DNA of 64,000 bases from Margaritispora aquatica. Lineage: Eukaryota > Ascomycota > Leotiomycetes > Helotiales > Discinellaceae. Of this stretch, positions 1 through 20,080 are shown piece after piece. A program made the translations under genes and the position numbers. The notes under the pieces are model-generated. The model saw nothing but the letters and a program-made list of their open reading frames with translations. It was not told the origin of the DNA and ran no database searches. Within the stretch, counting starts at the first letter, position 1, and every line of letters starts with the position of its first letter. The DNA lies in NCBI GenBank assembly GCA_007644065.1, contig VJWN01000022.1, forward strand, positions 1-64,000. Reading direction: 5' to 3'.

Positions 1-143
1 TATACCTCCGACTAGTGTCCAGTTACCCGCTTCTCGTATATAAATAAGAGTTAGGAGTAACTTAGTAAAAGTAAAAAGAAATTTTAATAAGATTGTAATT
101 CCTATAATACTAATTCTTACTATCTTACTAAGCGAACCTTATA
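1..143 (+). repeat. 5' LTR of outer element, 3' portion only
   Basis: This stretch aligns base for base with 19937-20080 near the 3' end of the right LTR, with many transition differences. The right copy ends TCACA where this one ends TTATA, a CpA to TpA change. The start of the LTR lies before the window. Confidence 0.88.
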
Positions 144-239
144 TTCTTCTCTCTTCTAATACTTAAAAACGAGAGGTAGTTTAATACGAATCGGTTAAGA
201 AACGTACTAGTTATAGAACTAGTTATATCTACTTAAAGA

Positions 240-1720
240 AAGTAGACTATACCTTTTACTTACTCGTAGACGTAGGGAAGGAACTAGTAAAGTAGGACTA
301 TATCGGAAGGAGCTAAAACGGGGCCTAGCTATATCTAAGAACTTATTATAGGGAATAAAGAAGACGAAGAAGATAAAGACGAAGGAGACGAAGACGAATT
401 AGTTAAAGATTAGGAGGACCCTTAATAACCTACTACTATAACGACTCTTATATCTAACTAGGAGTTAGCCTAAAAGTAAGAGAAAGTTAATCGGTTAAAA
501 CAACAAATTATAGCTATATAATAACGTCGTTATAACTAACAACGACAGAGCCGAAACGCCTCTAAAGTAGCTAGGTTAAGTAAAGAAGCCTAAGCCTTAC
601 GCGAAGAGCTCGTAAACTTATATAAGGAAGAAGAAGAGGAAGGAGATTATAATCTATTAAGAAGCTATAAACGTTAATATTAAAGATCCTAAACTAAGGA
701 AGCCGATTCTAAAGGTCCGCCTCGATACTAAAATTACTATAGTAAAGTACTAATTAGTTATATCCCTTAACTAAAGATTAAGTTACTCGAAATATTCTAC
801 AGGAAATTATTAAGTAAAATCTAAACTTTTATTAAGTAGGTAGAACGACGCTTTATATAAGATAATAAAAAGGACTATCTTATTAACTAAAGTAGAATTC
901 TATTTTATATAACCTCTTTTAATATAGTACCTAAACGGAAGTAAACCTCTTATAAAGAAAACTAAAAAGAGATTAAAAATATTAACTAAGATAATTTTAA
1001 GAGTTTCTTTAAAGATACTAATAACGACCTTACAAGTTTACTCTTATATATATCTAATAAGTATACGGAGGCTTAGTATTAAGAAGGTTAACTAATTAAG
1101 GATTTCGTAATTTATTTAAAATCCTTTAAATAATAATTAAAGTTTATAGATAATAAAAATAATAACTAGTAAAGATACTTAGTACTTTACTTTTAGTTAT
1201 ATCTAATATTAAAGTAAAACGTAAATATAAAAGATAAGGTTCCTATAGAATAAGAGAAGTTTATTAATCTTTATAAGTAATTATAAAAAAGAATAAAGAA
1301 TTAAGATAAGAATAAGGTTTTAACTAGTAGCTAAGACTATACTAATTAGAATCTTAGAAATAGATAAGAACCTTTATAGGACAAAGAAAAGAGTCTAGAA
1401 TATTTAAATTTAAGAGAAGGTTATACGAAGCCTAAATAGAACGATACGAATCGGACTTCTTTTAGACTTAAAACAAGGTTAACTAAGACTTATTATAAAT
1501 ATAATAAACTAGGATATATACTTTCTAGTTACTTATAAGTTAAGTGTTATAACTATAACGAAATAGGTTATATAGTACCTAATTACCTTAAGCCTAAGAG
1601 AGTATAAGGAAACTACTAGTCCTAGTAGTAATATTAATAATACTAACTATACTAAGTAATATTAAAGTACGTTAAAGGATTATAATTTTAATCTAAGTTA
1701 AAGGAGCTAAAAGGATATAG
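240..1720 (+). pseudogene. gag remnant of the outer element
   Basis: Stop-broken + strand sequence upstream of the protease remnant. A CCHC zinc-knuckle relic is visible at 1545-1586: the first Cys codon is kept, but later Cys and His codons now read as Tyr (TGT to TAT, CAT to TAT, TGC to TAC), all explained by CpA/TpG mutation. The N-terminal part is not recognisable by eye, and the limits are approximate. Confidence 0.55.
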
Positions 1721-1859
1721 AGGATAGAATAGGCCCTTATTAATAGTAAGGTAGAGTAGAGTTACGTATTACAAACTCTTACTATTAATTACAAATAGAC
1801 TCTAAAGAATAATTATATTAGCCTAGTTATAGTAAATAGAATAGAAATCTTAACTTATA

Positions 1860-4800
1860 AAATTTATAAGATTAACCTAAAGGCTATAGACTCTAAAGGT
1901 ATAACGAAGACCCTTTAATATAGCTTCGTGGCTTATAAGTTTACTAACCTTAACTTTTCTTTTATTCTAGGATTCCTTTAGTTAAAGGATATTAACTCTA
2001 TTATTAGATTTTATTTAAGGACCTAATAATACCTTTCGAAAAGTATTAGATTTACTTAGTAATAACGTTACGTTTTAAAAAAAAAGCTAAAGGATTATTT
2101 ATATATTATATAGTTATTAGAACTATTATTAAAGAAATAAAGAAGCTCTTATTAGAGCTCGAAGACTATAAGGTAGTTTTTAATAATACTAACATTAGTA
2201 TCTTACCTAAATACTATCTAATAAAATACTAAATCGACTTAGAGCTTAGTATAGAGGTACTATAAGGACTAGTTTACTCTTTATTAGAATAGGAGCTTTT
2301 AGTTCTTTAGGAATATCTTAATATTAGTAAAAAGAAAAGGTAGATCTATCGTTTAACTAGCCTTATAGAAGTACCTATCTTTTTTATACTTAAGAAAGAT
2401 AGAGGACTAAGGCTATATATTAACTACTACGGGTTAAATAAGGTAATAATTAAGAATCGTACTCTTTTACTACTAATTAATAAAATACTAGATCGACTAT
2501 AATATTCGTAAAGATTTATAAAGCTAGATCTAAAAGATATATATTATCGTCTTTAGATTAAAGAAAAAGATAAGTAGAAGATAGTCTTTTAGACTTATTA
2601 CGAATACTTCAAGTATTTAGTCTTACTATTTAGATTATCTAATACTCTTACTACTTTCTAAGCCTATATTAATTAAGCTCTTATTAGTCTCGTTAACGTT
2701 ACTTATATAGTTTATTTAAATAATATTTTAATCTTTTTAAAAGACTTTAGAAAGTATATAGAGACAGTATAAAAGGTTCTTATATAACTTAAATAATATA
2801 AGCTTTTCGTTAATCTTAAAAAATATATCTTTAATACTAATATAGTAGAATTCCTAGGTTTTATTATTAAACTATAAAGGGTTACTATAGATCCGTTAAG
2901 AGTTAGTATTATATTTAACTAACTTATACTTAAGTCTTTCTAAGATATTTAAGTATTTTTAGAATTTACTAACTTTTATAAAAGGTTTATCTAAGGATAT
3001 TTAAAAATCTCTTACTCTTTAACTAAGATACTAAAGAGAATAGAAAAAGAAAGGAAGATAAGGCTATATCGTCTCTCTCTTAAAGCCGAGTTAGCTTTTA
3101 GAGATCTTTATAAGAAATTTATTAAAGTACTGATTCTTTGTTATTTTAACCTTACTAAGAGAATTATAGTAGAAATAGATACTTTGTAGTTTACTATTAA
3201 AGGTATTTTATCTTAACTATTTAAAGAAAGAAAGGATATAAGATAGTACCTTATTGTTTTTTATTTAAAAAAGCTTTTTCTTATAAAAAGGAATTATAAA
3301 GTTTATAATACTAAGTTAATAACTATAGTTTTTACGTTTAAACAATAGGGACAATACTTCTATAAAGCCTCTAAAGTAATTATAGTTCGTACTAACTATA
3401 AGAACCTAAAATACTTTATAACTAAAAGAAAGGTTAACGGTAAATAAGCTTATTAGATAGAAAGTCTAGTTAAAATCGATTTTATAATTAAGTATAGACT
3501 TAGGAAAACTAACTTAGTAAATAGACCTTTATAGAGGCTAGACTATAAAGAAACAAAAGGAGATAATAATTCTTTACTTATACTATATAATAAGCTAAAA
3601 ATAACTATAGTAATATAAAAAGATATTAAACTACTCTATAAAAAAGTTAAGATTATCGTTATATTTATAGTAGCTTCTAAACCCTAGAAGGTAAGAGTAA
3701 AGATAAGGATTAGGTATTCCTAGAACAGAGATACTCTATAGCTTAGTTAAAGACCTTATATACGAGACGTATAGACTAAAGATAATTATAATATAGTAGA
3801 TAATATTAAGTTATTAAAGCTTGTTACTAGAGCTATTAGTTATAAATAATACGTTCTATAGTTACTAGTAGTTCTACTACTAGTAACTGAAATAGTAAAT
3901 AAACCTATATTAAAACCGTTTCGTAATATACTTCTTTAATTATAAGAGAATAACTCTTTTATAAAAGAAAAGTACTATAATATAAAGCTAGTATAGAGAT
4001 ATACTAGAAAAGATATATAAAGAGTAAACTTAAGTAGTTTATTAAGATATAAGAATATAATATATATTTTACTTAAAAGAGCTTTAAAATTAGAGGTAAT
4101 TTAGACTTACTACGATAATATAACGATAGGTTACTTTAAAATAACTAAAACCGTTAAGCTAATTAAAAGAAAATATTTTTAGATAAGTATAAAGAATAAT
4201 ATAAAAGAATACGTTACTAACTATATAGTATACTAAAGAAGTAAGGTAAGGAGATACTATCTCTATAGTAAGATAGCTCTATTTCTAGTCCTTTTCGTAC
4301 TATAAGAAGAGATAACTATAGACTTTATAATAGATCTTCTACCTTTAAAATAAAGAGTATAGATATATAACTTTATTCTAGTAATAGTTAATAGGTTTAT
4401 AAAGATAGCTTAGTATATACTATATTATAAAACTATCGATATAATAAAGTTTACTAATTTATTTATATATTATATATATAAGGATTTTAGTTATCTAAAA
4501 GGTATAACCTCTAATAAAGGTTTAGTATTTATAAGTAAGTTTTAGTCTATAGTAATATAGTACCTTTAGGTTCGCTATTGTCTTAATACCGCTTTTTATC
4601 TATAAATAAATAGTTAAATAAAGTATTAAAACTAGACTCTAGAGTTTTATCTTTAAGTATTTTATAATTATAAGTAATTAGATTAGATAAGTAAACTAGT
4701 ATTAGTTAAGTTTACTTATAATAACTCGGTTTATAATAGTACTAGTAAGATATTATTTTAGTTACTTTATAAATACTACCTTAAACTAGGTATAAACGTC

Positions 4801-5301
4801 AAGGATACTATCTTTATTAAAGAAGTACTTATTATTAAAAAAAGAATTAAAATACTTACTTAAGATCGAGAAGAGACTAAAGTAACTCTCTATAACGTAG
4901 TTAAATTGTATAAGAAGTTTTACGATAAAAAGTATAACTTAATAAGATTTAAGATTAAAGATAAGGTATTATTATTAACTAAAAACATTCGTTAATTACG
5001 TCCTAGTAAGAAACTCTTTAATAAATTCCTTAGACCTTTTAAAATTATAACGATTAAGGGTTAGTATAAATAAGCCTACTAACTAAAGCTTCTATAACAC
5101 TACTAAATATATAACGTTTTCTATATATTATTATTAGAACTATAAGAGAGCTATAAAGGAGTAGAAGTATCTATAGAAGAAGTGTAGATCTAGGACGAGC
5201 TAGAGTACAAAGTAAAGGCTATCTAAGCACACTATAAAAGTAATAACGGAAGGGAATACTTAGTAAGATAGAAGGGATATAGACTTAACAAAGATATATA
5301 G
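1860..5301 (+). pseudogene. pol remnant of the outer element (PR, RT, RNase H, IN, start of chromodomain)
   Basis: A protease relic lies near 1889-2010, with a D-S core and the downstream ILGFP..KDI block. RT covers about 2180-2900; its catalytic aspartate pair now reads L-N-N at 2713-2724, so it is dead. RNase H covers about 3100-3550. The integrase HHCC finger and DDE core lie at about 4080-4800. The chromodomain begins near 5190 and contains EYLVR.KGY. RT through chromodomain share one frame broken by TAG/TAA; the protease is in another frame, so a frameshift or indel lies between. The frame is cut at 5301 by the inner element and resumes at 18572. Confidence 0.88.
5298..5301. repeat. Target-site duplication ATAG, left copy
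   Basis: ATAG precedes the TG of the left LTR and recurs at 18568-18571 directly after the CA of the right LTR. Confidence 0.85.
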
Positions 5302-5544
5302 TGTAAAGGCTACAAAACTGCTGTGCTACAGGGGGAGTAGTGTGAGAGGATAGGGTAGCACTAGGTCTATAACGCTCTGGTCTAGCACGTCTAATACGTA
5401 GGAAAAAGGGCCCGTCACATTAGTTGGGAAAGAAGAAGATGATTTGCTATGTAATATCGAGAGCTCCCTATAAAAGACCCATCCCATATCACGTGCCCTG
5501 ATCAGCTAACAGATCAGGTGACCGGCCAGCCCTTAACCACTACA
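5302..5544 (-). repeat. 3' LTR of inner element
   Basis: Same length as the copy at 18325-18567 and different at two positions only: G5379 versus A18402, and T5534 versus C18557. Both are RIP-type transitions. It contains a perfect 7-base inverted repeat (CCTGATC 5498-5504, GATCAGG 5513-5519) and, on the + strand, TATAAAAG at 5470-5477. Confidence 0.97.
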
Positions 5545-5563
5545 TTCGTCCCCCCCTCCTTTA
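5545..5563 (-). other. Polypurine tract of inner element
   Basis: On the minus strand AAAGGAGGGGGGGACGAA abuts the 3' LTR, the expected plus-strand primer of an LTR element. Confidence 0.8.
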
Positions 5564-5717
5564 GTAGTCGACCCCGACTACTACCAGGCTAGGCACGCAA
5601 CCTCCTCCATAGGCGACAAAATAGTACACCCGGCGCATGAAATAACAAAGCACTTTCGTTCAAACAGCGCTACAGGCGAAAGAAGGGAGAAGAAAAAAAG
5701 AAAACAAGAAGACTAAT

Positions 5718-8330
5718 CTATATCATACTTCCAGCATCAGCGTCCATTTTCTCTACAAAATTGTCTCGTCCCCTTAGAGCGCTTTCTTCTTCATTAGTGT
5801 CAAAACCTTCGTCATCCTCTAGAGTAAGAAACGGAATACCGTCCGCTTCCAGCCTTCCTAGGTAAAAGAAGTACGATTTCTCACCGAAAGCGCGACGCTC
5901 TTCCTACTTGACCAGTTCGAAAGCTTCCTAAGCAACTGTCACAGCTCGTGCTCTCCAGTTCCGGATATACTCAGCGGCTGTTTCGTCAGACCCTATGAGT
6001 AGCAGGTCTCTGTCCTTCAAAACCAACGGAGAATCCCAGCGCCTTCTACACACGAGAGCGTCTAACAAAGCTCCTAGACCCGTCACCTCAACTACGGCTA
6101 GGAAACGGTATAGAATGGCACCGTATTTGTTAGCTAGACCGGATAGCGTGGCGGCAGGCGAAATCATATCTCTATGTACTACAGCAAGTATGTCCTATAA
6201 CCCTCCTTCCACGACCTCCAGATTCTTGAGATCTTCTTGAAGCCCTACTAGCCACGGAAGCATCAGGCGCCGCTCTTTCTTGGCTAGGCCGTCTGCACCG
6301 TGTGGGATTTAGGGAACGAAAATGCGGGCTTGCCCTCTCTTTCCGGGCTTAAAGGTCTAGTCTATACCTAGTAGTTTAAAGTCTTCCTTAGTAAATATCT
6401 TCTCGGTAACCTTATAGACGAGGCCATCCGATCCTTGTCCTCGATCTAAAACTCTCTTCTACCAGGCTCCAAGACACCTATACATCCCTGGGATCATAAC
6501 AGTATAATTTGTCTCATCTTCATTATTTATTGAGACGAATCCTTGGATCATACTAGTGCCTCGCTACTTTTCCACCATAAGTAGGACGTTTAAGTCTATA
6601 TATCGGAATTAGGTACTGTCTCCTTTCACATTGTATTTAGCATAGTACGGGTAGGACACGAGTCTCTATTGCTTGTCTGGACGGAGTACAGCATAGGCCG
6701 TGTAGTAAACAGGATCCTGGCGCATCAATTGTTGACTAATCGAGAAGAACATATTCCGTAGCCATCCGTAGTTCGCAATCCCATTGATTTGTCTCAGATA
6801 GTGTTTATACATGTCGAACTCCTGGTCCACGATCGCACCAATAGGCGTTTCCCACCACTATGTAAAGATGTTTAGTACAACGGTGCCTTCATCATCCTAG
6901 ACCTTCATGTCGATTTCATCGCAAATTCGTTTCTACACGAGACTCTAATCAAAGTCCTACTGTTTTATACCGTCGTTATAGTAGAACTTGTAGGGGCCTA
7001 GGTTGTCGGAAGGTCTTGTAGGCCGATTTCCTTTTCGGAACTATCGGTACGTTGTCTTGTCGGTTTTCATTTTTCCTAGATGTAGCTTGTTCTCGTGTAT
7101 AATTTTTAGTCTCTAGTTCATGACTTCTACATTAAGGGTTTTGACGCGTAGGCCTACGTGAGTAGCAACGCCTTTCGTGTGTACGAAACAGACTTTCCTA
7201 AAACCCATCATCCGGTCCAGTAGCTTCAGGTTTACGAACTCCTCGTAGGTAGCAGTTTTGAGTACTATCTGCTTATAGGAATCCGAGACCTCCTCCGAGC
7301 ACTCGTAGTTGCCTTTTCTCCGCTTCCTAGGCCGCTTATCGTCGTCCTCACTAGCTGATACGAAGACTAGGAGGCTCGCTTCTTCGACTTCTTTGGCCGC
7401 CTCCTTCAGGGCTGCTTCGTCGACTGTATATTGTACAGTTACAGCTTCCAGTTCCTTGTCTTGCAGGGCACTTTCGTCGATATACTTAGAGGCCGAAGTT
7501 TTACTCCGCGGTAAAGATTTAGTTTTCGAGGGGTCGCTACTTAGTTCGCGTATTTCACGCGCCGGGAGCGGGAAATCGGGGCTCGGTTCAGGTTCCGCGA
7601 TGTCCATGATCTCTTACTGTCCCTCCTCAATGAGGCCCCCGCGGCCGATTCTTATTCCGTGACTAGCCAGCTACGCGTTCGTAGGGTTTTCCGTGGCGCT
7701 TGACTTGCTTGCCTTGTCTAGGTCCGCCGTTTTAACCGTCTTTTTGCTTGAGATCCCTTTTCCGCGCTTATTTAGGCGATTGATGATTTCGTTGTTGATT
7801 CTAACTACGGCTAGTTCCCAGCTATATACGCTAGACAGTTTTCGGATCCCGGCCATAAACCTCTACGAGACCTTCTCAGAACTTGCTATCCTACGTTTAG
7901 TCAGGCACTCGATAATGTCCTTGTCCTAGTTACCGAGGGCAGCGCGCCTAGCTTCGTCGATCCTATCTCGTCGCTCCGTATTATTCTTGATCACAACGAC
8001 GGCTTTACTCTAGCGCGCCAGGAATTCTTCTTTAGAGATAGTCGCTCTAAAGGCCCTATCTTCCCGGATATACTTAAAGATCTCTTCGACCGTATCGCCC
8101 GAATTAGTATAGTATCTAAGTATCTGGTCCAATACCTCCGCTTGTACATCGCTTCTTTCGCGCTTATCTTCAATGCTCTACATAAAGCTTATAGCGTCCT
8201 TAGTCGTTTCGATCTGGATTGCTGTCCCTCTAACCGTGATCTACTGGTTGGGTTCGTCTATTGTTCTTCCGGCTGTCCTGTAGCGGGTACTCTCGATCTG
8301 GTTAGTACTCTCTAGTGCTAGTAATAACAC
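5718..8330 (-). pseudogene. Accessory reading frame A of the inner element (about 870 codons), possible 2OG-Fe(II) dioxygenase-like protein
   Basis: One minus-strand frame runs from about 8330 to TAG 5718-5720. Apart from roughly twenty TAG codons and two TAA codons, all where Gln or Trp is plausible, it has no other stop, so it was a long protein gene. It lies between integrase and the 3' LTR, in the same direction as gag-pol. The N-terminal third is charged (a DDDKRPRKRRK-type basic run near 7320). The C-terminal half has recognisable blocks: FRYID at 6594-6611, where TAT could derive from CAT and restore an H-x-D pair; IQGFVSINNEDE; IPHGADG near 6300; and RRLMLPWLVGLQED. The H-x-D plus a later P-H-G resembles the iron-binding layout of 2-oxoglutarate dioxygenases. 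That is inference only; the family is not established. Confidence 0.6.
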
Positions 8331-8437
8331 CCTTCTATTATCGAAATAGTTTGAAACTTTTTGGTAAAGTTTTTAGAATCAAATTCCCTTTTGAAGTCGC
8401 CGAAACTCTATTGTCAAGTTGCTATCAATTTAGCTTT

Positions 8438-8610
8438 TTGGCGTTAGGTCAGGTGACTTTTTCGCTTAATTTAGGACGAATTCAGCTTTTTAGCCTCTTC
8501 CCTTCTAGATTCCTAATTATTTATTCGCGATTTCACTACAAATTCCTCTAACTTTTTTCAAACAATTTCGATTATAGTTTTCGGTCTATACACCTTTCCC
8601 TTCCTTCCTC
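8438..8610 (+). repeat. Conserved upstream block of B1 (copy 1)
   Basis: It shares GTTAGGTCAGGTGACTT, a later AATTCCTC.AACTTTTTTCA block and TTCGGTCTA.A.AC with 10449-10610, in the same order and spacing, directly upstream of the related frames. The likely explanation is a duplicated promoter region. Confidence 0.75.
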
Positions 8611-8689
8611 TAACCCCCCTCCTTATACGGCAGTACTTATACCAACTCACAGCTTACAGCTCCGTTACCTTCCCCGCTTTAGTGTAACT

Positions 8690-10123
8690 ATGACTCCTCA
8701 ACCTAAAGCAGATGAACTAGCTACCCGTAGGGTTCTCAATCCCGCTAAAGGCACTATGCATATATGTGACCTTATTGATATAACTAAGGACGGTGTGTAC
8801 AACAAGGATATTCTGTCCTCGTACTTGGTCGGCCTCGTTACTCTTTCTGTTAAGTTAAGGATCATTTCGGTATGGGAGGGTTCTCTGTTCTAAATTCCGT
8901 TCGTTAAGGGTCCTAAGCTCTACGCTAATGCCATCATGATCGGCGATCCTTACATTAGTCCTAATAGCCTTGTATTGGCTATCGACGATGTCATCCTCCG
9001 CGGCGGCCTTGATTACTATAAGTAGCATACTAACCCTAGCATCTTACCGCTCAGTATTGAAGGTATCAAGACCTACGCCAACTTTGAAGCATAGAAGCGA
9101 GACTACTTTTTTGTTAGCGGCAACAAGGGCTCTAGTGTTTATGATCGCGTTGGTAGTCTCAACAGCCTAAAAACCATTGATACATACGTTAATGGTCGCA
9201 ATTACACTCCCGGTCCCAACACAGTACTCTAGAACACTCTCAAGCCTCGCAGTGGTTTACGCTCTTCTCGCGCCTCCGGCTCCGCTTCTCAGTCACGCTC
9301 TTAACCTCGTACTCCACAAGTCTAGACCGCTCCAGTTCAACCCGTCCCACCGTAGCCCGCTCGCAACTCCGGCGGCGAATCCAGTAGAGCTACTCCCGTC
9401 CCCTCAAATAACAAGAAACGTAAGCGCTCGTCCACTACGCCTAAGTCTTCTAAACGTATTACACCCGTAGACGACGAGGATTTTGCGAGCCCGACGCGTG
9501 AAATAAAGGCGGAGGGTTCCGGCAGAAAGAAATCTAGAACTAGAAGGCAAAAGAGTAAGTAGAAGGAGGACAGTCCCGCCGCTAATTCGGATAGTACCAC
9601 CGGTAGTATAACTAAGGCTAAATTTCTTCGGGATTATAATATTCGACTCTACGGCCGCTCCACTACTCCCGAGGCTGGAACCCTAACGCTCCCCTAACCT
9701 TACGACCCTGAACTGTAGGAGCTCGTTAATAGTGTAATGTTCGATTCTTTTCTACATAATAGCGATAATAGCGGGGAGAAGGATAACGAAGGTAAACAGG
9801 TCCCAGCTATTACGTCTTCCCCCGCTGTTCTTAGACGTCCGACTAGTTCGCTACTTTCCTTCCTCTCGTAAACTCCAGCTATCGATAGTAACGTAAGCGA
9901 TAATAATGATAGCGAGTCCGCCGGGGAGGGTGCTAAGCGTAGTGGACATGATTCTAATAGTGACTAGGATAGCTCGCCTTAACCACGTCGTAAGGGCAAG
10001 GGAAAGGCTAAGAAGACTCCTGTCAAGGCTACTTCCAAGTCAGTTAAGACTCCAACCGAGCGGGGTACCAAGCTCAAGCTTGTCGTGTCTCGTAAGGCGG
10101 GCAGTCGCGGTAGAGAGAACTAG
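8690..10123 (+). pseudogene. Accessory reading frame B1, antisense to gag-pol (about 478 codons)
   Basis: From ATG 8690 one + strand frame runs to TAG 10121-10123, broken only by TAG/TAA codons of RIP type (for example 8891, 9025, 9091). The N-terminal block contains RVLNPAKGTMH and DILSSYLVGL, also present in B2. The middle is Ser/Pro/Arg-rich, and the C-terminus is very basic (RRKGKGKAKK, KLKLVVSRK), suggesting a nuclear or nucleic-acid-binding protein. It is divergent from frame A across an approximately 360-base gap. No known family was recognised. Confidence 0.6.
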
Positions 10124-10448
10124 GTCTCAGTCGTTCCCCTTCTATTCTTTTGTTCTTCGTATAGGTTTTCTTTCTCGATAGGTCCTCTTGCCTAGTAATT
10201 TGATTAATACGTCCGGTACGTAGTTCGCGGGTAGCGCTTATGAAATACAATAGTTTTTACAAACAGAAAGATAAAATTTAAATATAATTTTAAAGTGTAA
10301 TATAGTAAGCGGCTAAATCCGTAAAATATAGTAATAAGGAGAGAAACAGAAAACAAAAATAGCGGGGATAAAGGAAACGTTCTTTGCTCGTCACAGTAGT
10401 TAGTTGTACGGGCTCTCCTCCTCTCATTCTTATGATATATTACTACAG

Positions 10449-10610
10449 CGTCGTTAGGTCAGGTGACTTCCTCGCTTAATTCAAGAATTCGACTTTTTTA
10501 CTCATTTTAGCTCGCTTTTTCAGCTATTTAGCTTTTATTTCGGTCACAATTCCTCCAACTTTTTTCAAGCAATTTTAAGTCTAGCCTTCGGTCTACATAC
10601 TCTTCTCTTC
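10449..10610 (+). repeat. Conserved upstream block of B2 (copy 2)
   Basis: Partner of 8438-8610, about 2.0 kb downstream. The two blocks plus the coding similarity show that promoter and gene were duplicated together. Confidence 0.75.
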
Positions 10611-10666
10611 TCGTCCGCTTATCGGCTAACGATCGCAGGTTACCTCCGGCCTATCTTCTCGCGACT

Positions 10667-11437
10667 ATAAGTACCCCTCTAGAACGTACTAGGGTCTTCA
10701 ATCCCCCAGCGGGCTCCATTCATGTCAGCGACCTGATCGCTATAGCTCGCGATAGCATTCACGCCAATAACTACTTGTCATCCTATTTGATAGGTACACT
10801 CCTGTTTGGCTACAAGCTCGGACTCGTCAACCCAGAGGACCTTTCACTTTTCAAGCTTTCTTTTCCTAAAGGTGCCCGTCTTCTTCCCAGCACGCTTTTG
10901 GTTAGTGACCCATGCCTTGGCCCGGATACTACACTTATAGAGTTTAACGACATCGTCCTCTATAGCTACCATTCCTACTACAAGGATAAGGACGATCCAG
11001 GTATTACTCCAAATTCTCTTAAGGAGCTTGCGGGTCATCCTCGTCTTGACGGGTAGGTTCGAACCAACCTTTACTACGGCGGTAGCGAGAACGATCGCAC
11101 CTACGTTCGAGCTCATAGTACAGAAGCGGGCAAGGTTGATCTTAGTCCAAACACAGTTCCTTTCGACGAGTCCGACTTTCGTGTCGTACGCAAGCTCCGT
11201 CCTTTCTCCCAGCTACGCCAGTACCGTTTTAGTCAGGCCAGAATCCGCTTTCCCGCTCCCAGCAAGCCCAAGAAGAAGCTTAATCCTTCCTTCGACTATA
11301 CCTACCGTCCTAACTTTAGTAAGACTAAGGAAGAGCAAGCTTGTATAGATTCCCTCGAACACCGAATTACGTATACAGAGAGGAACCGGTTCTTTTCGAG
11401 GGTATGTTTATATCTTCTAAGCAGCTTTCGATTATAA
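10667..11437 (+). pseudogene. Accessory reading frame B2, diverged duplicate of B1
   Basis: The frame starts at ATA 10667, aligned with the ATG of B1 and explained by TpG to TpA. It runs 257 codons to TAA 11435-11437 with a single internal TAG at 11057. The block RVFNPPAGSIHVSDLI and NYLSSYLIG matches B1. It lacks the long basic tail of B1 and ends with a lysine-rich segment (SKPKKKLNPS). It converges with the end of pol, leaving about 540 AT-rich bases between. Function unknown. Confidence 0.6.
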
Positions 11438-11974
11438 AAAAAAAATCTAATAGTTATTTCAGTATTAAGGGTTAGTTACGGTTTCTAATATAAGTCTGAA
11501 TCGCTCTTCAGGGTTAACGCTCGATATATTTTTCTCTTCGCTAAGTCTTTTACTTCGGCCTATTATAATACACTTTTGGTACGTCTTGCGAATTTCCTCT
11601 TAAGGAGCAAAAATAGAAGTCTTGCGTATAAAATAAAATCAAATCGAAACTTCGTAGCAGGGGAAGCAGAATTAAGCCTAAAATTTTATAACAAAAGAAA
11701 ATAAACAAAACGAGGGTAAACATAGCTTCCTTTTAAAGGGCGGGTACAAATAGAAACAAAGAAAGTTAAGAAAAATTTAGTACCAGCTAAAACTCCGGTC
11801 GCTTACTCCCTTCTCCCCCCTTTTTTTTTCATTTCACGCTCCCGGCGCGTAAAATAGTAATCTTTCTTACTTCTCTATTACCACCGTAAAGCGGCTTCCC
11901 CCTAGAATTGCCTTCCTACGTCGATCTTGGCTTTCCAGCTCTTACTGTCTACTCTCGGCCCCTCGCGTAGTTGC

Positions 11975-14900
11975 CTATACCCGCTCACCTTCTCTATTAG
12001 AATCTTCGGTATTACTTCCCGGCACGCTCGCGCCCTCCGATGCTTCCTCCTCGGTTCCACTCTCGGGCTCTACTAGCGTCCCGCCTCGGATCTCCGAATA
12101 GTTTTTAGGTACGAATCCTTTTAGCCTATTGCCAGAGTATGTCCCTTTTATTAGTGTTCCATCTAGCTCTTCAAGCGTGTAGGTTCCCTTCCGATTTGCG
12201 GATGTTACTCTAAACGGGCCCAACTATCTGTAGCCTAGTTTGGACCTAACGGACATGTCGATCTCTTGCACTACATCATGAAGTAGAACCAGTACGCCGA
12301 CCATTAATTCCTCTCTTCTCAGGCTCTACCATTCATCGAACGCTTCTTTTCCTTCCAACCTTTTCCTTCGTACCATTAACCGAGCCTCCTAGAGGTCCTC
12401 TTCTTTTCTTTTCAGCTGAATAGCTCTTTGCTACAGTAGACTCGCAGTATCCTTGACTTTACCCCAGTCCCTTAACCTCCATGTTAGCAGACTCATCTCA
12501 ATAGGGAGAATCGCTTCTCGACCGTATAATAGATAGAAGGGGGTTTGGTTAGTAGTTACCTTTGTCGTGCATCGATCAGTAAACAGAACAGCCGCAAGAT
12601 TTGTCACCCAGTCCCCCTCCCCTCCATCGGTCATTTTCGCAAGTGCATCGACAACAGCCCTATAACCCCTTTCAACCATTCCATTTGCTTTTGAGTTGTA
12701 TACCGATATCACTACTCTCTTGATACCATATCTTTTCATAAAGTACTCGACGTGCTTCTTGTTTTCAAGGCCTCCATCAACCACTAGCCTTCCAAAAACC
12801 CCATAGCGACATACAACCTCTTCCCATAGGAACTTGGCTACCGATTTGGAAGATACCACTCCTAAGGCTCTGGCCTCCACCCACCCGGAAAGATCCTCCC
12901 TAGCAGCTACCATATACTTCTTGCCTTACGCGTTCGGCATATAGACGATATCGAGCCCCACCTTCGACCATATACCGGGCGTCCAAGTCGCAAATAACTC
13001 CTCGGGTTTTTGATTACCCGTCCGTAATTAGCAGTTCTCGCAACTCCTTATATACTTAACGCAGTCCCCGTAGCATTCTTTCCAGTAGTAGCGGTCCGCA
13101 ATTCGCCTATAGGTCGCTTCCCTTCCCTTATGACCCATATCGTTATACATACTTTTCAGGATCTCATGTTTCTCTCCCACGGAATCCACTACTCTAGTTT
13201 GAGGGGTACTCTTTGTCGCTCGTCAGTATAGTGCGCCATTTTGGACCAGGTGTTTCAATGCCTCCGTCTTAAAACGTAAGTACTCTTTACGTTCTATCCT
13301 ATCAGGTCTTCGTAATATAGTCAACTAATTTACGATAGCCTTCGATTTTGTACTCCACGTATCCTCCTCCAGATTGTTCTACATCTCTTCTCGTTGTAGT
13401 ACGTCTGAACTATTTTCGCTAGCTAAAAGGGGGGCAATCCTAAGGTAGTTTAGCTCCGCTTCTACATAGTTATCTAGATCCGTATTTTCTTCCGTATCCG
13501 ATTCTACTTTTAGCCTTCGTGACAGACTATCCGCTACTATATACTTCTTCCCCGGCACGTGTCTAACTTCGAAGTCGAATAGCCGAATCTAGGCTAGCCA
13601 TCTTGTTACCAAAGCCCCCGGCAGATCAGCGGCGCCCCTATTCAGTTGAGCTACCAAGACATTCGCATCAGTTTCGAGGACAAATAGCACACCGTATAGC
13701 CACGCTTTGCACTTCTTTAAAGCTTTGAGTACCGCTCTACACTCGCGTTTTGTAGCGTCATACCGCGCTTCAGCTTCCGTCCAAATTCCGCTTTCGTAAC
13801 GACACAGGTAGCGAAGGCCTTCACTATCAACTTACATCAGCACTACTCCCCATCCAGTTAGACTTACATCGGTAGCGAGTATAATTTCTCCCGCCCCCTT
13901 ACCGTATTCCATCTTAACCAGAGCTAGCGCCGTCGTCAGTGCCTCCTTCAGCGTATTCATAGCTTTTATCTGTTCTTCCCCCCAAGCAAATAGGGTGCCT
14001 TTCTTGAATAGCTTATAGATTAGCTTTGTGATCTCTCCAAACTTCGGTATCCAAATTCTATAGTAAACGCATACCCCGACGAATACTCGAGCCTCTCCAA
14101 TATCTTTACAGTTACTCCACCGAAGGATCTTGACTACCTTAGAGCTACTAGGGCGTCTCCCGTCTTCATTACACACGAACCCCACAGCATTAATACCATT
14201 AACGCAGAATTAGGACTTAGGACCAATCGTACAGCCAGCTCTTTCGATATCAGCCAGCACCTTGCTTAGGTTTTACAGGTGGAGGAGAACAAATTTCCGT
14301 ATCCCGGGTACCACCTCCTCATCATTGAACCTAGAGTAAGGGCCTTTTACCCCGACATCGTCCACGAAAAGGAAGCATATGTTTAGGATATGTTTACAGA
14401 GAATCGTAGTTACGATTCTACAGAACTAGGCTACCGAGTTTGTCGCTCCTTAAGGCAATGTCGTCTAGCGTAATAACCCTAAAGGCGTCATAATAGCTAT
14501 AAGATCTCTGCTTGTTTTAGCCAAGTCTATCTAGTCGTATCCTAAGAAGAAGTCGATAAGGGAAGCAACAGCGTACCCTACAAATTCTTCCGAAAACTCG
14601 TCGACAGAAGGTAGCAGATTCGCATCCCTAATAGTAACACTGTTCATTTTCATCGCTACGTTAATAAGCCTGTATTTATTTTCCTTCTTTTTGACCAAAA
14701 ACCAGGGATTCCTATAAGGCCCATAGCTATGCTCCAGAACACCTCTGTCCAGTCTGTCCTACACCATCTCTATAACGATGTCTCTCAAGGATTTAGGTAC
14801 AGGGAATCCAGGTTCTTGCCATACTTCATACTCGACAGTTCGAATCTCCTATAGAGGCGCCACTTCAGGTTTGACTTTCCCACATTCCGAGAAATCGAAG

Positions 14901-15415
14901 GCAATAGCTACTTCCCGATAGTAAAGCATCTCCTCTAGCAACTCTCTCTCCTCCTTCGTTAGTTCTTCTCCCACCACTAAGGTATTTAGCCACTCCCGCG
15001 TTAGTCGTTGTCCTTTCTTTAGTGTCGAAAATTTTGGTTCAAACCAATGATCATACTTTCCAATCTACTCCGTCCCTTTTACGCCTTAAATAGCTTTCGC
15101 CCTCCATCCAATTTCTCCTCCCGGGTTAGTCCCGTCCGACGTCCCCAGGTTTACGGGTATAACTTTTACAGCTTTTCTTTTATATACTACAAACACTTTC
15201 CCCTTTTTAGTAAATCTAGCAATCAACTTTTAGGCTACCCAGGTATATCTTGTCGTCCAATAGTAGCGCCCAGGTCCCCGTTTAGATTCGTTCTTACCCG
15301 CACCTCGCTTACTTAGCTCATTTCTTACGCCCGGCTTAAGAAATATCGAACTACGTAGACTTCTAATTCTACCTTCTCGTATCCCAGATTCCCCAATAAA
15401 CTCCAGGCTTCCCAT
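11975..15415 (-). pseudogene. Pol of the inner element: RT, RNase H, integrase, GPY/F tail
   Basis: RT is recognised by FVDDVGVKGP, whose FVDD is encoded at 14357-14368; the catalytic pair is intact. RNase H follows at 14185-13832 with the catalytic TDVS block. The integrase has Cys residues of the HHCC finger near 13030-13080 and DDE residues in GLDIVYM, VVDGGLEN and NGMVERGY (about 12980-12640). After it, 12223-11975 has MGPFRV plus a short GNRLKGF segment, the GPY/F module. No chromodomain is seen. The blocks share one frame interrupted by TAG codons, so the gene is not translatable as read. Confidence 0.9.
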
Positions 15416-15484
15416 AACAAATGAAACCTTCTTACCTACCTTTTTCTTTTCCAGGGTTCGCTCTCTGCCGGCCCTCTCCCCGCT

Positions 15485-15900
15485 CAGGACGGCTAATCTT
15501 CCCCCGATTCCCTGCTCCGCTCTCCCGGAAGCTATACGACTCTCACTCTTACTTCGTTACCGCCTTTTAGGTCCTGCATCACGGCGTATTGCCCATCCTT
15601 CCTATATTCGTATAAAAGCCACACAGCAAAGCTAAAAGGTTAACCGAGCAAAAGAGCGTGGTCTCCTTCCTTTACAACATAGAGGTATTGTAGGACTCGA
15701 ATCCCTCCGATCTCAAGCTCGACGTTTTCACATATACCATCAAAGTAGGATACCTCCCCGCCATACGGAATCATCATCATACTATCATTCCGTCTAATTA
15801 CTAGTCCAACGGATGTTGCCAGCTCTCTAGTTATAACATTCATTTCCGTACCGGTATCTAGCAACGAGAAGGTCAGGTAGCCGCCGTTCACTAACACTCT
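15485..15900 (-). pseudogene. Protease domain of the inner element
   Basis: The frame from 15897 encodes a retroviral-type aspartic protease with the active-site motif LLDTGTEMN and a closing ALLLG block. A TAA at 15640 stands where Gln is expected. The frame then runs on, with TAG codons, to a TGA near 15487. Protease shares the gag frame; the RT frame is offset by one base in the -1 direction and is already open in this stretch. Confidence 0.83.
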
Positions 15901-16499
15901 AGCTTTCGGGCTGTCCGCAAGAAGGAATAGCTTACCTTTTAGGACATTTATATAACTTACTCTCTTTCCCGTTAAAGTGTCGTCGATGACTTCTGATCGT
16001 TTAAACAGTAACTCCCTAATCTCACTGGAAAGACCGATAAGCTCCTCTATAGAGATTTGTAACTCCCCACCCAGGACTCTGTTCAGTATCTCTTACAGGT
16101 CCGAGCGAGCTTTAAGGCGGTCCTCCAGAGTTTCTCTTTTCTTTCGTATTCTAGTAGTTTCTTCAACAACTTCCTTCTTTTGTTCACTAGTAGCTCGTAC
16201 ACACAGAGCCTTAGGCTTAGTGTCCATCATCTCAATATCCTCTTCTTCTAAATCGGCATCACTTCCAACCTAGCTTCCTTTTAGCACTTTAGGTAATATA
16301 TACTTCTTTTCTTCATTTCTCCGTTTCTTCATCACCTTTTTTACATTCGTCCACTTGTCGTCCTTTGGATCCTTTTTCTCACTTCGGACAGCTCTTACCC
16401 CAGCGCCCTTAAGCCCCTCTAAGTCGGAGTCTTCTTTAGAACTTAACTCAGAGTCGACTTCATTAGATACCTGATACGCTCTTAGTACGTTATTATTAG

Positions 16500-17790
16500 A
16501 CGGTTTCTACATCACAGTCACTAGCTTCGGCGGCTCCTCTTCCTCCACGCGACTTAACTACTGTTGTGACTACTACTACATCCCCCCCATCCCTTCATAC
16601 TGCTGTCTGTTAATAGGCTACTAAGGCGAGGGGCCCTGCCCTCTACTTCCCATCCGAAGGTTGTTTTGTTACATAACTTGTTCTCTCTCGGTCGCACCTC
16701 TATACTTGAACATTACTCTTGCTCCCGGTGTGTACGGTCCGACTACAATCTTATTCATATCATTTATATAGCAGTACCCCGCCTAGATGTCCTAGTGCAG
16801 CATTTCGTATTCCCTCTTAAAATATCCTCGCCCTCCGTAGTAGTAGTATCTACTCGATCCCTGACCATTCCTGCTCATCATTGCGTTGAGATTAGATACT
16901 AGGGTTTCCCAAGTTCGAGCGTCTTACTAGCCATAAGGCTGCGGACCGCGGTACTACCCTTAGGGGTAACCTTGATTTGCTACGCTAGGTGCGGGAAATC
17001 CAAGTGTCTGCTACTTTGGCATACCTTACAACACAGCAAGTAAGAGTTTCTACATTCCTTAGACAATGTCCGATAGCTAAGCTTCCACCCCGCGATCCAC
17101 TTGTGCAGGCTAAGGCACAACTAACGGGGCTAACTTGAGGTCCAGAGCGACCGCCTCCCTTTTCTTTTAAGTTTGTTCAACGAGCTTCTACATGTCCTTA
17201 TCTACTACTCTTGTTCCTACAAAGTCTCGAACAGTTTCATTCGCTGTGTCAATATCGATGATAGTTTTAGCTATCTTATCGAACTTAACCGTACTTGGCT
17301 ACTTAGTTTTGACTTTATGCTTCCGAATAACTTTGTCTCGAATACGCGTCGGGAGTCCGTTCAAAAACCACATTCCCCGCGTATATTCATCTAGGATTTG
17401 CTTCTCAGTGAGGTGTTTAGAGATAGCTGTGAACTGTCTTACATACTGTCTCAAATCATCCGTGTCTTTACACGGGGTACTTATAAATGTTTCAAGGAAG
17501 CGTCTTGAGAACATCTACTAAAATACGTCCTGATCTTTATATTCAGAGAGTAGGACACTCTTGAAACTGAGCCAGTCCTTCAACCCATACTCAGACATAT
17601 TCTTAATGAATTGTCCGACAGTAGTTTCGCAGTATCGCGGCAGCCTCTTCGTCATCTCATCATCCCTAACTCTATGGTCTGTACACAGCTCTTCAAATCT
17701 GTCCAAAAACTCTGTCACATTCGCTCCATCGAAGTAGGGTGCTCCAGGAGCTCCCGCCAGCGGCATAGGTACGCGGAAGGTCACCATTCT
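16500..17790 (-). pseudogene. gag of the inner element
   Basis: The frame starting at 17787 reads a retrotransposon gag: a central FDGANVTEFLDRFEE block, then after two adjacent TAG codons the same frame continues with FSRRFLETF and LPTRIRDKVIRKH. The two TAGs and later ones sit where Gln or Trp codons are expected, consistent with CpA to TpA mutation. Downstream to about 16500 the frame is more broken, and no intact CCHC knuckle was identified by eye. It supplies the capsid protein and lies upstream of protease in the same frame (codon starts at coordinates divisible by 3). Confidence 0.8.
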
Positions 17791-18307
17791 ACTCTGATCT
17801 CCTATAATTAACGTGTTCCTCAGCGCTTCCTTAGGCTCTTAACTTAGTTCTACTGATAATTCCTCGGTCCGATCGATCTCTCCTACTGGTATTTCTTCGA
17901 ATAAGATATAACTCATCAACAAGTCGACTACCTTCTGTACCGTTTTTACTATCAATGCCCATGCACACAGCGTTGTCCACACCGTCTCTATTAGTACCGT
18001 CTCTCCTAAGAGTAGGAGTTCTTCTCCCCTCTTCTTTTCTTCCTTCTCTTTTTCGTTCCTTTCCCTATTCTTTTCCTAAGTAAAGTATATATACTCCTTA
18101 TCTTTCCCTACCTTCGATTTATTTTGTCCTAGCCTTCGTATTTTCCTACCTACATTCGCGATTCTAAGTAAGACATTAATCTCCGCTCTCTCCCGTCCTC
18201 CCCACCTATCGTTTTCTATATACTCTTTCATCGCCTCCTATTCGTTTTCAACCACAAAAAACCGTAACTAGACTAGTGTGTATATAGATCCTTCCTATAA
18301 ACAAAGC

Positions 18308-18324
18308 CTCTCGTCGGGCGCCAA
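18308..18324 (-). other. Primer-binding site of inner element
   Basis: On the minus strand the bases next to the 5' LTR read TTGGCGCCCGACGAG, a typical TGG-start tRNA-complementary primer site. It fixes the element's orientation. Which tRNA is used was not determined. Confidence 0.8.
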
Positions 18325-18567
18325 TGTAAAGGCTACAAAACTGCTGTGCTACAGGGGGAGTAGTGTGAGAGGATAGGGTAGCACTAGGTCTATAACGCTC
18401 TAGTCTAGCACGTCTAATACGTAGGAAAAAGGGCCCGTCACATTAGTTGGGAAAGAAGAAGATGATTTGCTATGTAATATCGAGAGCTCCCTATAAAAGA
18501 CCCATCCCATATCACGTGCCCTGATCAGCTAACAGATCAGGTGACCGGCCAGCCCTCAACCACTACA
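18325..18567 (-). repeat. 5' LTR of inner element
   Basis: Near-identical partner of 5302-5544. In the minus-strand direction it is followed directly by the primer-binding site, which makes it the 5' LTR. Confidence 0.97.
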
Positions 18568-18571
18568 ATAG
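18568..18571. repeat. Target-site duplication ATAG, right copy
   Basis: Partner of 5298-5301. Removing one copy restores the outer pol reading frame, which supports the assignment. Confidence 0.85.
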
Positions 18572-18613
18572 GAACTACTAGAACACTTAAGAAATATAAA
18601 GGAAAAGCTTTAA
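18572..18613 (+). pseudogene. C-terminal end of the outer pol chromodomain, separated by the inner insertion
   Basis: If the inner element and one copy of the ATAG duplication are ignored, codons at 5293-5301 (D, I, TAG in place of W) run in frame into codons at 18572 onward (ELLEHLRN), which is the helix that closes a chromodomain. The frame ends at a TAA at 18611-18613. This fixes the insertion point inside the chromodomain coding sequence. Confidence 0.85.
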
Positions 18614-18939
18614 AAGTACCTTTAAAACACTACTATTAATAAGCCTATTCCTATACGTACTAGGACAAAACGGAAGCCACGACGTCGTAAATAGAAGGTA
18701 TAATAATAAGTAGGATTTTTCGAAAATTTCGAAAATTTTATATTTTAAATATATACGTATAGTAGAGTTTAAAAAAGAGAAAAGAGTTAGGATTTAAATT
18801 ATAAAGATTATATTACGATTTATAAAAGATTATATAACTATCTAAATCAAATTCCCTCGAAAACTACTTACTTCTCTTTAGAATTAATCTCTTTATAATT
18901 ATTTTCCTTAATCTTCTCCTTAGTATCCTTATTATTATC

Positions 18940-19340
18940 TTAGAGACTAGCCTATCGGGGTTAGAATAGAGAAAGGATAAAGAATACTCGGAAGGTACTT
19001 ATAGTAGTAACGGTAAATTTAACTAATTACTCGAAGAGAGTATTAGTTTTCTTTTACTCTATAAAGAAAGCTTAGATTAACTTTTCGATATTCTTAAAAG
19101 GAGTATTTTAACGATTAAATATCTCTATACGAATCTTAATATCTTCGAAGGTATAGAAGATAATAGAAAGGAAGGTTTACGTATATATATTAAAGATATT
19201 ATTAACTTAGAAAAGTCGTTAAAAGTAATTTAGCTTTTTTATACGAACCTAGAGAAAGCGAGGAAGCTATTAGAGTTAGAACGGAGGGTAGACGGAAGAG
19301 GTTTAGAAAGTAATTACCTAGTTATAGTTAGACTTTTATA
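18940..19340 (+). pseudogene. Reading frame after pol in the outer element
   Basis: Downstream of the chromodomain stop, a + strand frame from about 18960 to 19330 is interrupted only by TAG/TAA codons and reads as Leu/Glu/Lys-rich, helix-like sequence (LLLYKESLD, LEKARKLLELERR). It continues toward a TAG/AGT trinucleotide run at 19473-19530. It may be an additional outer-element protein or the end of an extended pol; no family was recognised. Confidence 0.4.
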
Positions 19341-19472
19341 TATAATAATAAAAGTACTTAATCAAAGTTCTCTTATTAAACTTATAAATATAATATATAT
19401 TAGTAGAAGCTAGCTTCGTATAGCGGGTATAGGGAGAACGGAGGCGTAACGGATAGGTAGCGGAGGAGCTTA

Positions 19473-19530
19473 TAGTAGTAGTAGTAGAGTTGTAGTAATA
19501 GTAGTAGTAGTAGTAGTAGTAGAATTAGTA
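19473..19530 (+). repeat. Interrupted TAG/AGT trinucleotide repeat
   Basis: Runs of GTAGTAG occur inside the outer element. They could be a RIPped CAG repeat or serine AGT repeats, depending on frame. Confidence 0.6.
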
Positions 19531-19816
19531 GTCGATATAATAGAAGATTAGGTTAATTTAGGCGTAAGAAATTGTTTATATATTACTTTAGCTAACCTAC
19601 TATTGTAATAACTTCAATATAAAGCTTATAATAATAAGCTATTCGAGCTATAAAAGAGAGTTTATATACTATTATAGTGGTTTCGCTTAAGGGACCTATA
19701 ATAGTAAGGAGCTAGTATTATACCTAAGATATTATTTATATACGAAAAAGAATAAAGAAGGATGGTTAACGTTACTATTATAGTATTACTATTAATAGGA
19801 ATGTTACTATTGTCGA

Positions 19817-19832
19817 CTCGTGAAGGCACGAG
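19817..19832 (+). other. Hairpin before the outer polypurine tract
   Basis: CTCGTG, loop AAGG, then CACGAG form a perfect 6-base stem directly upstream of the polypurine tract of the outer element. Confidence 0.6.
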
Positions 19833-19835
19833 CCT

Positions 19836-19848
19836 AGAGGGGGGATAA
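19836..19848 (+). other. Polypurine tract of outer element
   Basis: AGAGGGGGGATAA abuts the TG of the 3' LTR at 19849. Confidence 0.8.
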
Positions 19849-20080
19849 TGTTAGGAATAGTATATAAGTAGTATAGGTCACGTGGTATAGGCGTGATAGA
19901 GGCGTTAAGTAATAAGAGAGTTACGGACCTATCGGCTATACCTCTAACTAGTGTCCGGTTACCCTACTTCTTATATATAAATAGGAGTTAAGAGTAACTT
20001 AGTAAAAGTAGAGAGAAGTTTTAATAAGATTGTGATTCCTATAACACTGATTCTTACTACCCTACCAAGCGAACCTCACA
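19849..20080 (+). repeat. 3' LTR of outer element
   Basis: It begins TGTTAGGAATAG after the polypurine tract and ends TCACA. Its last part aligns with 1-143, with multiple transitions between the copies, so this pair is older or more RIPped than the inner LTR pair. Confidence 0.88.

Follow-up and report, generated by a model that had tools for sequence, protein, structure and literature searches.

A Ty3/gypsy retrotransposon of Margaritispora aquatica that carries a dioxygenase-like gene and two antisense genes between integrase and 3′ LTR

What is a 6.4 kb block of three genes doing between the integrase and the 3′ long terminal repeat (LTR) of a fungal retrotransposon, and does it travel with the element? 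The locus that raises this question lies in the first 64 kb (64,000 nucleotides, hereafter the window) of contig VJWN01000022.1 in the Margaritispora aquatica assembly GCA_007644065.1, where a Ty3/gypsy LTR retrotransposon of 13,266 bp occupies positions 5302–18567 on the minus strand. The three cargo genes, termed A, B1 and B2, are damaged by repeat-induced point mutation (RIP). Upon searching the genome (42.4 Mb in 49 contigs, denoted here by C numbers, with the window on C15), we found the whole 13.3 kb unit, including its cargo, at two loci that differ in flanking sequence and in target duplication; the cargo moves with the element.

An earlier note on this DNA had placed about 6.4 kb of cargo between integrase and 3′ LTR, with A in sense and B1 and B2 in antisense orientation, and the anatomy of the element bears this out (Table 1). 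In the sense direction the order is 5′ LTR, primer-site-like sequence, gag with protease, pol, B2, B1, A, polypurine tract and 3′ LTR. The two LTRs (TGTAG...TTTACA, starting with TG and ending with CA) differ at 2 of 243 bases and, together with the ATAG target duplication, agree with a Ty3/gypsy assignment, as does the Ty3-like domain order of gag, protease, reverse transcriptase, RNase H and integrase. The best solved relative of pol is Ty3 Gag-Pol (3.1e-39); Pfam matches to RT_RNaseH_2 (4.3e-19) and Integrase_H2C2 (2.6e-13) were above the cut-off, those to RVT_1 (4e-6) and rve (5.5e-4) were below it in this RIP-damaged copy, and no chromodomain match was detected in the damaged pol. The putative primer binding site has a 15-base core identical across four element copies (C5, C15, C36 and C42), and no tRNA matching it was found among six non-element loci scanned. 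As for the description of the element as giant, at 13.3 kb it is large but not extreme for such elements, judging by the available part of PMC6431247. Outside this family, the genome has at least four reverse transcriptase relatives; those listed are all at 23–26 % identity, and no close cargo-free sister element is among them.

Table 1. Features of the element and its cargo (window positions)
Feature	Position	Strand	Remarks
Target-site duplication ATAG (left)	5298..5301	.	4 bp
3′ LTR	5302..5544	-	243 bp; direct repeat
Polypurine tract	5545..5562	-	Adjoins 3′ LTR; read directly from sequence
Cargo gene A	5718..8330	-	Sense to gag-pol; 2-oxoglutarate/Fe(II) dioxygenase-like, 871 codons
B1 leader	8442..8603	+	Inside A/B1 intergenic region; similar to B2 leader
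Cargo gene B1	8690..10123	+	Antisense to gag-pol; recurs in C36 and C43
B2 leader	10452..10610	+	Similar to B1 leader
Cargo gene B2	10667..11437	+	Antisense to gag-pol; also present in C36, C43 and, after heavy RIP, C22
pol: reverse transcriptase, RNase H, integrase	11966..15541	-	Pfam matches; Ty3 Gag-Pol
gag with aspartic protease at C-terminus	15541..17826	-	Asp_protease_2 2.1e-5, residues 654-731
Putative primer binding site	18306..18323	-	TGG start, one base inside 5′ LTR; read from sequence
5′ LTR	18325..18567	-	243 bp; direct repeat
Target-site duplication ATAG (right)	18568..18571	.	4 bp

The LTR search of the genome returned 19 matches. Gag-pol DNA was found at six places (C15, C36, C43, C42, C22 and C5) and cargo DNA at four, in full on C15, C36 and C43 and in part on C22, where the match covers query positions 6–1668 of 6,421 and ends at the contig start. 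The copies on C42, which ends at a contig end, and C5, which ends within 152 bases of one, both stop before the cargo start and are uninformative on it; all four copies readable past pol contain cargo. C36 holds a second complete copy (13,267 bp) of the same gene order, with an LTR pair differing at 6 of 243 bases and a 4-bp ATAT duplication on both sides, as opposed to ATAG in the window copy. Its flanks (1.8 and 2.4 kb compared) had no blastn similarity to those of the window copy, nor had those of C42. Recurrence of the cargo between the same integrase and LTRs at another locus had been set beforehand as the test of a mobile cargo, and C36 provides it. The converse, a single nested capture flanked by terminal repeats of its own, was rejected because C36 has the 13.3 kb unit with a target duplication that differs. 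A repeat search of 5545–12400 showed neither inverted repeats nor long direct ones around the cargo, and no copy readable past pol is without cargo. Tandem repeats were likewise not found here. Furthermore, the cargo precedes the polypurine tract in the sense direction and therefore should belong to the reverse-transcribed RNA.

The window copy is nested in an outer element (window 1 to about 20,077) that is AT-rich, strongly RIPed and LTR-bounded, its LTR-like ends (1–139 and 19,937–20,076) matching at 87 %. This outer element, present as 1–5301 and 18568–20076, has a TA/AT ratio of 1.79 and a GC fraction of 0.25 in 1–5301, and a 2.3-kb piece of it has 18 matches in the genome. The copies on C43 and C15 end in an identical 27 bases of the outer element, and this common flank rules out treating them as two independent insertions; Duplication of one nested locus, or else a common target, probably explains C43, which was left out of the count of independent insertions. 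The overlap between C42 and C43 matches at only 95 % (1,044 columns compared), and these are therefore different copies. Five of the six gag-pol copies (C42, C43, C5, C22 and C15, with C36 excepted) sit on short contigs or close to the end of one, reflecting either assembly breaks or a subtelomeric location.

Compared with C15, the C36 copy shows 727 transitions and 1 transversion over 13,266 bases, C43 shows 555 and 10 over 11,551, and C22 shows 2,125 and 25 over 8,229; for C36, 578 of the 727 C/T-type differences lie in a CA context, which is a RIP signature. Taken with the one named fungal relative, this pattern points most probably to a filamentous ascomycete. As the differences are nearly all RIP-type transitions, the copies were near-identical at insertion and were mutated by RIP afterwards. 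The 27 % divergence of C22 is also nearly all transitions, so we rejected an ancient divergent family in favour of the same family after heavy RIP.

That A, B1 and B2 were real genes before RIP, broken almost only by TAG and TAA, was a further claim that held. Gene A contains 23 internal stops (20 TAG, 3 TAA and no TGA), B1 contains 13 (8 TAG and 5 TAA) and B2 a single TAG. Stop counts single out the frames of A (24 including the terminal stop, where each remaining frame has 31–68) and B2 (2 vs 7–21), but do not single out that of B1 (14, with two alternative frames at 11 and 12), the reality of which follows instead from its paralogy to B2 and from an intact relative on C9. For A, we identified 44 relatives with 29–55 % identity, the best being 55 % over 97 % of the query. 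These are 771–981 aa long in 39 of 44 cases; some 440 residues precede the enzyme domain in this family, and a CxC...CxxH set is kept in 43–44 of the 44. The dioxygenase motif HxD...H...R (HDHR, the iron triad plus the 2-oxoglutarate-binding arginine) is present in 42 of the 44, the two deviating relatives being P0046, which is without the region, and P0047, which has QDYR; the C36 and C43 copies of A keep all four residues. A double-stranded β-helix was recovered in the predicted model of a single relative, P0005, whose predicted fold is that of a 2-oxoglutarate/Fe(II) dioxygenase nearest to DUF1479/PhyH enzymes. Pfam PhyH matched weakly and below its cut-off in 12 of 44 relatives (best 2.6e-4, 21.8 bits vs 22), DUF1479 was not among the Pfam matches listed for the 44, and an NCBIfam scan gave nothing convincing (best E-value 0.029). 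TET/JBP was absent from the Pfam matches listed for A relatives and from the 50 fold matches listed in each of two fold searches of P0005, and no A relatives were found in viral and prokaryote contigs. Motif and predicted fold of a relative thus support A as a putative member of a 2-oxoglutarate/Fe(II) dioxygenase-like family of PhyH/DUF1479 type. Elsewhere in the genome, a weak A relative without internal stops lies at C12:1995420–1995743 (L040; 29 % over 108 aa, E-value 1.5e-9), and may be a host gene that has decayed or contains introns.

B1 and B2 are paralogues with 30–32 % identity. As such, the three-gene cargo of the earlier note does comprise three genes, but these are one dioxygenase-like gene and two copies of one antisense family. 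The N-terminal ~180 residues of B1 are conserved, and its C-terminal part is basic and of low complexity. The two leaders are alike (89 % over 35 nt and 76 % over 74 nt), and given this likeness and the paralogy, a duplication that took the upstream region along probably gave rise to one B gene from the other. The intact B1 relative is a 200-codon frame at C9:236517–237119 (L033:8518–9120; 34 % identity), the sole one found outside the element in the genome and a possible host source or domesticated copy; no A match was listed on C9 in either search with A. Protein-database searches with whole B2 (367 candidates) and with a seven-row B-family alignment over the first 290 residues of B1 (8,000 candidates) found no homologues, although the method needs shared 5-residue words and distant relatives may escape it; viral contigs likewise yielded none. 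Structure prediction for the family was uninformative (mean pLDDT, the predicted local distance difference test score, 33.4). A retroelement could retain introns in its antisense genes, though not in sense ones. A splice-donor-like GTATGT is present near the end of B2 (window 11402–11409), and a second exon of B2 was unsupported on inspection in three copies.

A GC-rich 18-bp motif, CTCCCGGCGCGTGAAATA, occurs four times in the cargo, with the outer two copies (5627–5644, plus strand; 11839–11856, plus) near both cargo ends and the inner two (7551–7568, minus; 9488–9505, plus) inside A and B1, where it encodes FxxPxREI; a similar peptide is found in the linker region of 15 of the 44 A relatives. 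Across the genome, all eight matches with ≤ 2 mismatches fell in element copies, compared with 2 of 15 matches at 3 mismatches, and a reversed control pattern gave three matches in all. The 9-mer TCAGGTGAC has four matches in the window, in both LTRs and both B leaders, a number reached by 0 of 100 shuffles. We set it aside as a link between LTRs and leaders, being a post-hoc 9-mer shared by LTRs that are copies of each other and leaders that are likewise; by our own estimate ∼0.6 common 9-mers are expected per LTR–leader pair, and the sharing was not used as evidence.

What the cargo might do is a matter of weighing. We give a probability of roughly one in two to a Ty3/gypsy element whose transposing unit includes an anti-silencing or nucleic-acid- or chromatin-modifying A together with antisense accessory proteins B1 and B2. 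The 359-bp stretch separating A and B1 would drive transcription of both in opposite directions, and a duplicated copy of the B1 leader would serve B2. A might oxidize a nucleic-acid or chromatin mark and so help the element to escape silencing, whether by DNA methylation and RIP or through RNA marks, by analogy with the TET/JBP genes of fungal DNA transposons and an AlkB-type gene in an orchid Gypsy element; this step is among the least certain. Equally tentatively, B1 and B2 may work in the nucleus as accessory proteins that influence transcription of the element, a role like that suggested for antisense genes in other retrotransposons. Several observations weigh against such roles. The window copy of A has lost the conserved residue at the first iron-ligand position, and all three copies of A carry RIP stops, so A gave no lasting protection. 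The fold matches listed for P0005 are largely small-molecule enzymes, and to our knowledge DUF1479 enzymes are not known as nucleic-acid enzymes. A nuclear role for B1 and B2 would draw on composition and analogy only. Finally, a selection test on the cargo copies had no power, because there are almost no transversions and the copies were too alike before RIP. A more specific proposal is a lineage of fungal LTR retrotransposons that encode their own chromatin- or nucleic-acid-acting dioxygenase outside TET/JBP and AlkB and, with it, an orphan antisense protein in duplicate, together forming an anti-silencing kit aimed at methylation or RIP; this is unlikely on present evidence.

The main rival is passive hitch-hiking, in which host genes were transduced once and then amplified, A being a metabolic (DUF1479/PhyH-like, small-molecule) enzyme and both A and B useless to the element. 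The near-identity of copies before RIP, and so recent amplification, the intact B1-like gene on C9 and the many small-molecule enzymes among the folds nearest A all fit this explanation, yet A relatives are unlike compact metabolic enzymes in their length, ∼440-residue N-terminal part and retained CxC...CxxH, both B genes have kept their duplicated leaders, and the presence of two kinds of gene, differing in orientation, hints at more than a single capture; we regard it as possible but somewhat doubtful. A DNA-type mobile element of A, B1 and B2 might also have inserted once into a gypsy element, the composite then being copied. The 18-bp motif near both cargo ends in the same orientation is consistent with this, as is the carriage of 2-oxoglutarate dioxygenases by fungal DNA transposons (excerpts of PMC12730594), but the motif has two further copies within A and B1, no inverted repeats bound the cargo, no transposase family is among the Pfam matches of A, B1 or B2, and no A+B1+B2 block outside gag-pol was seen in our searches of this genome, making such an origin improbable. 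Segmental duplication of one nested locus, without independent transposition, could account for the 27 bases shared by C43 and the window copy; as the sole source of recurrence of the LTR-to-LTR interval it is very hard to reconcile with the ATAT/ATAT duplication of C36 and the dissimilar flanks of C36 or C42.

A different 2-oxoglutarate dioxygenase carried by a fungal retrotransposon would suggest that retroelements follow the strategy of DNA transposons via another enzyme family. Capture of 2-oxoglutarate dioxygenases by mobile elements is thought to counter epigenetic silencing, and a 2025 survey of fungal TET/JBP cargo reports none in retrotransposons in its available text (PMC12730594); the proposed kit, if true, would fill this published gap, that of retrotransposons without the dioxygenases that fungal DNA transposons carry. 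Among the titles and abstract beginnings listed in searches of open-licence literature we found no description of a 2-oxoglutarate dioxygenase in a fungal LTR retrotransposon. The element is also a clear example from fungi of an accessory block, with three genes in two orientations, that moves with an LTR element, and its dioxygenase cargo offers a testable substrate question. That the cargo is unusual, as the earlier note held, stands for the combination: within the excerpts available, an extra antisense gene has been published for fungi (brtn) and for plant Retand elements, a 2-oxoglutarate dioxygenase ORF has been published for an orchid Gypsy element, and the two together were not found for a fungus, whereas an extra antisense gene was already known in fungal Boty elements. 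An undescribed lineage is possible but unproven.

Among known systems, the Boty-like gypsy elements of Botrytis cinerea (Zhao et al., 2011, as cited in PMC7264820 and PMC8365987) are likewise fungal and carry an additional antisense gene, brtn, but only one, and the available passages of the citing papers mention no dioxygenase; brtn and B1/B2 are set side by side here by description only. Plant Retand elements (available text of PMC11963269) share a long region between pol and 3′ LTR whose antisense ORFs belong for the most part to a single family (TRP28), but differ in frequent tandem repeats and in having no 2-oxoglutarate dioxygenase reported there. Gypsy_Pa_2799 of the plant Phalaenopsis is, in the accessible part of PMC9289625, a Ty3/gypsy element with a separate 2-oxoglutarate/Fe(II) dioxygenase ORF, but this ORF2 is AlkB-type and the element is 25 kb long, with 6.4-kb LTRs and two ORFs in all. 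The TET/JBP carriers described in the extracts of PMC12730594 are also fungal with 2-oxoglutarate/Fe(II) dioxygenase cargo, but are DNA transposons and Helitrons, and kinship of A to TET/JBP is not established. Finally, DUF1479 enzymes (C. albicans GIG2, bacterial YbiU and kin) show 13–14 % identity over the aligned part and have chains of 395–451 residues, as compared with ∼850.

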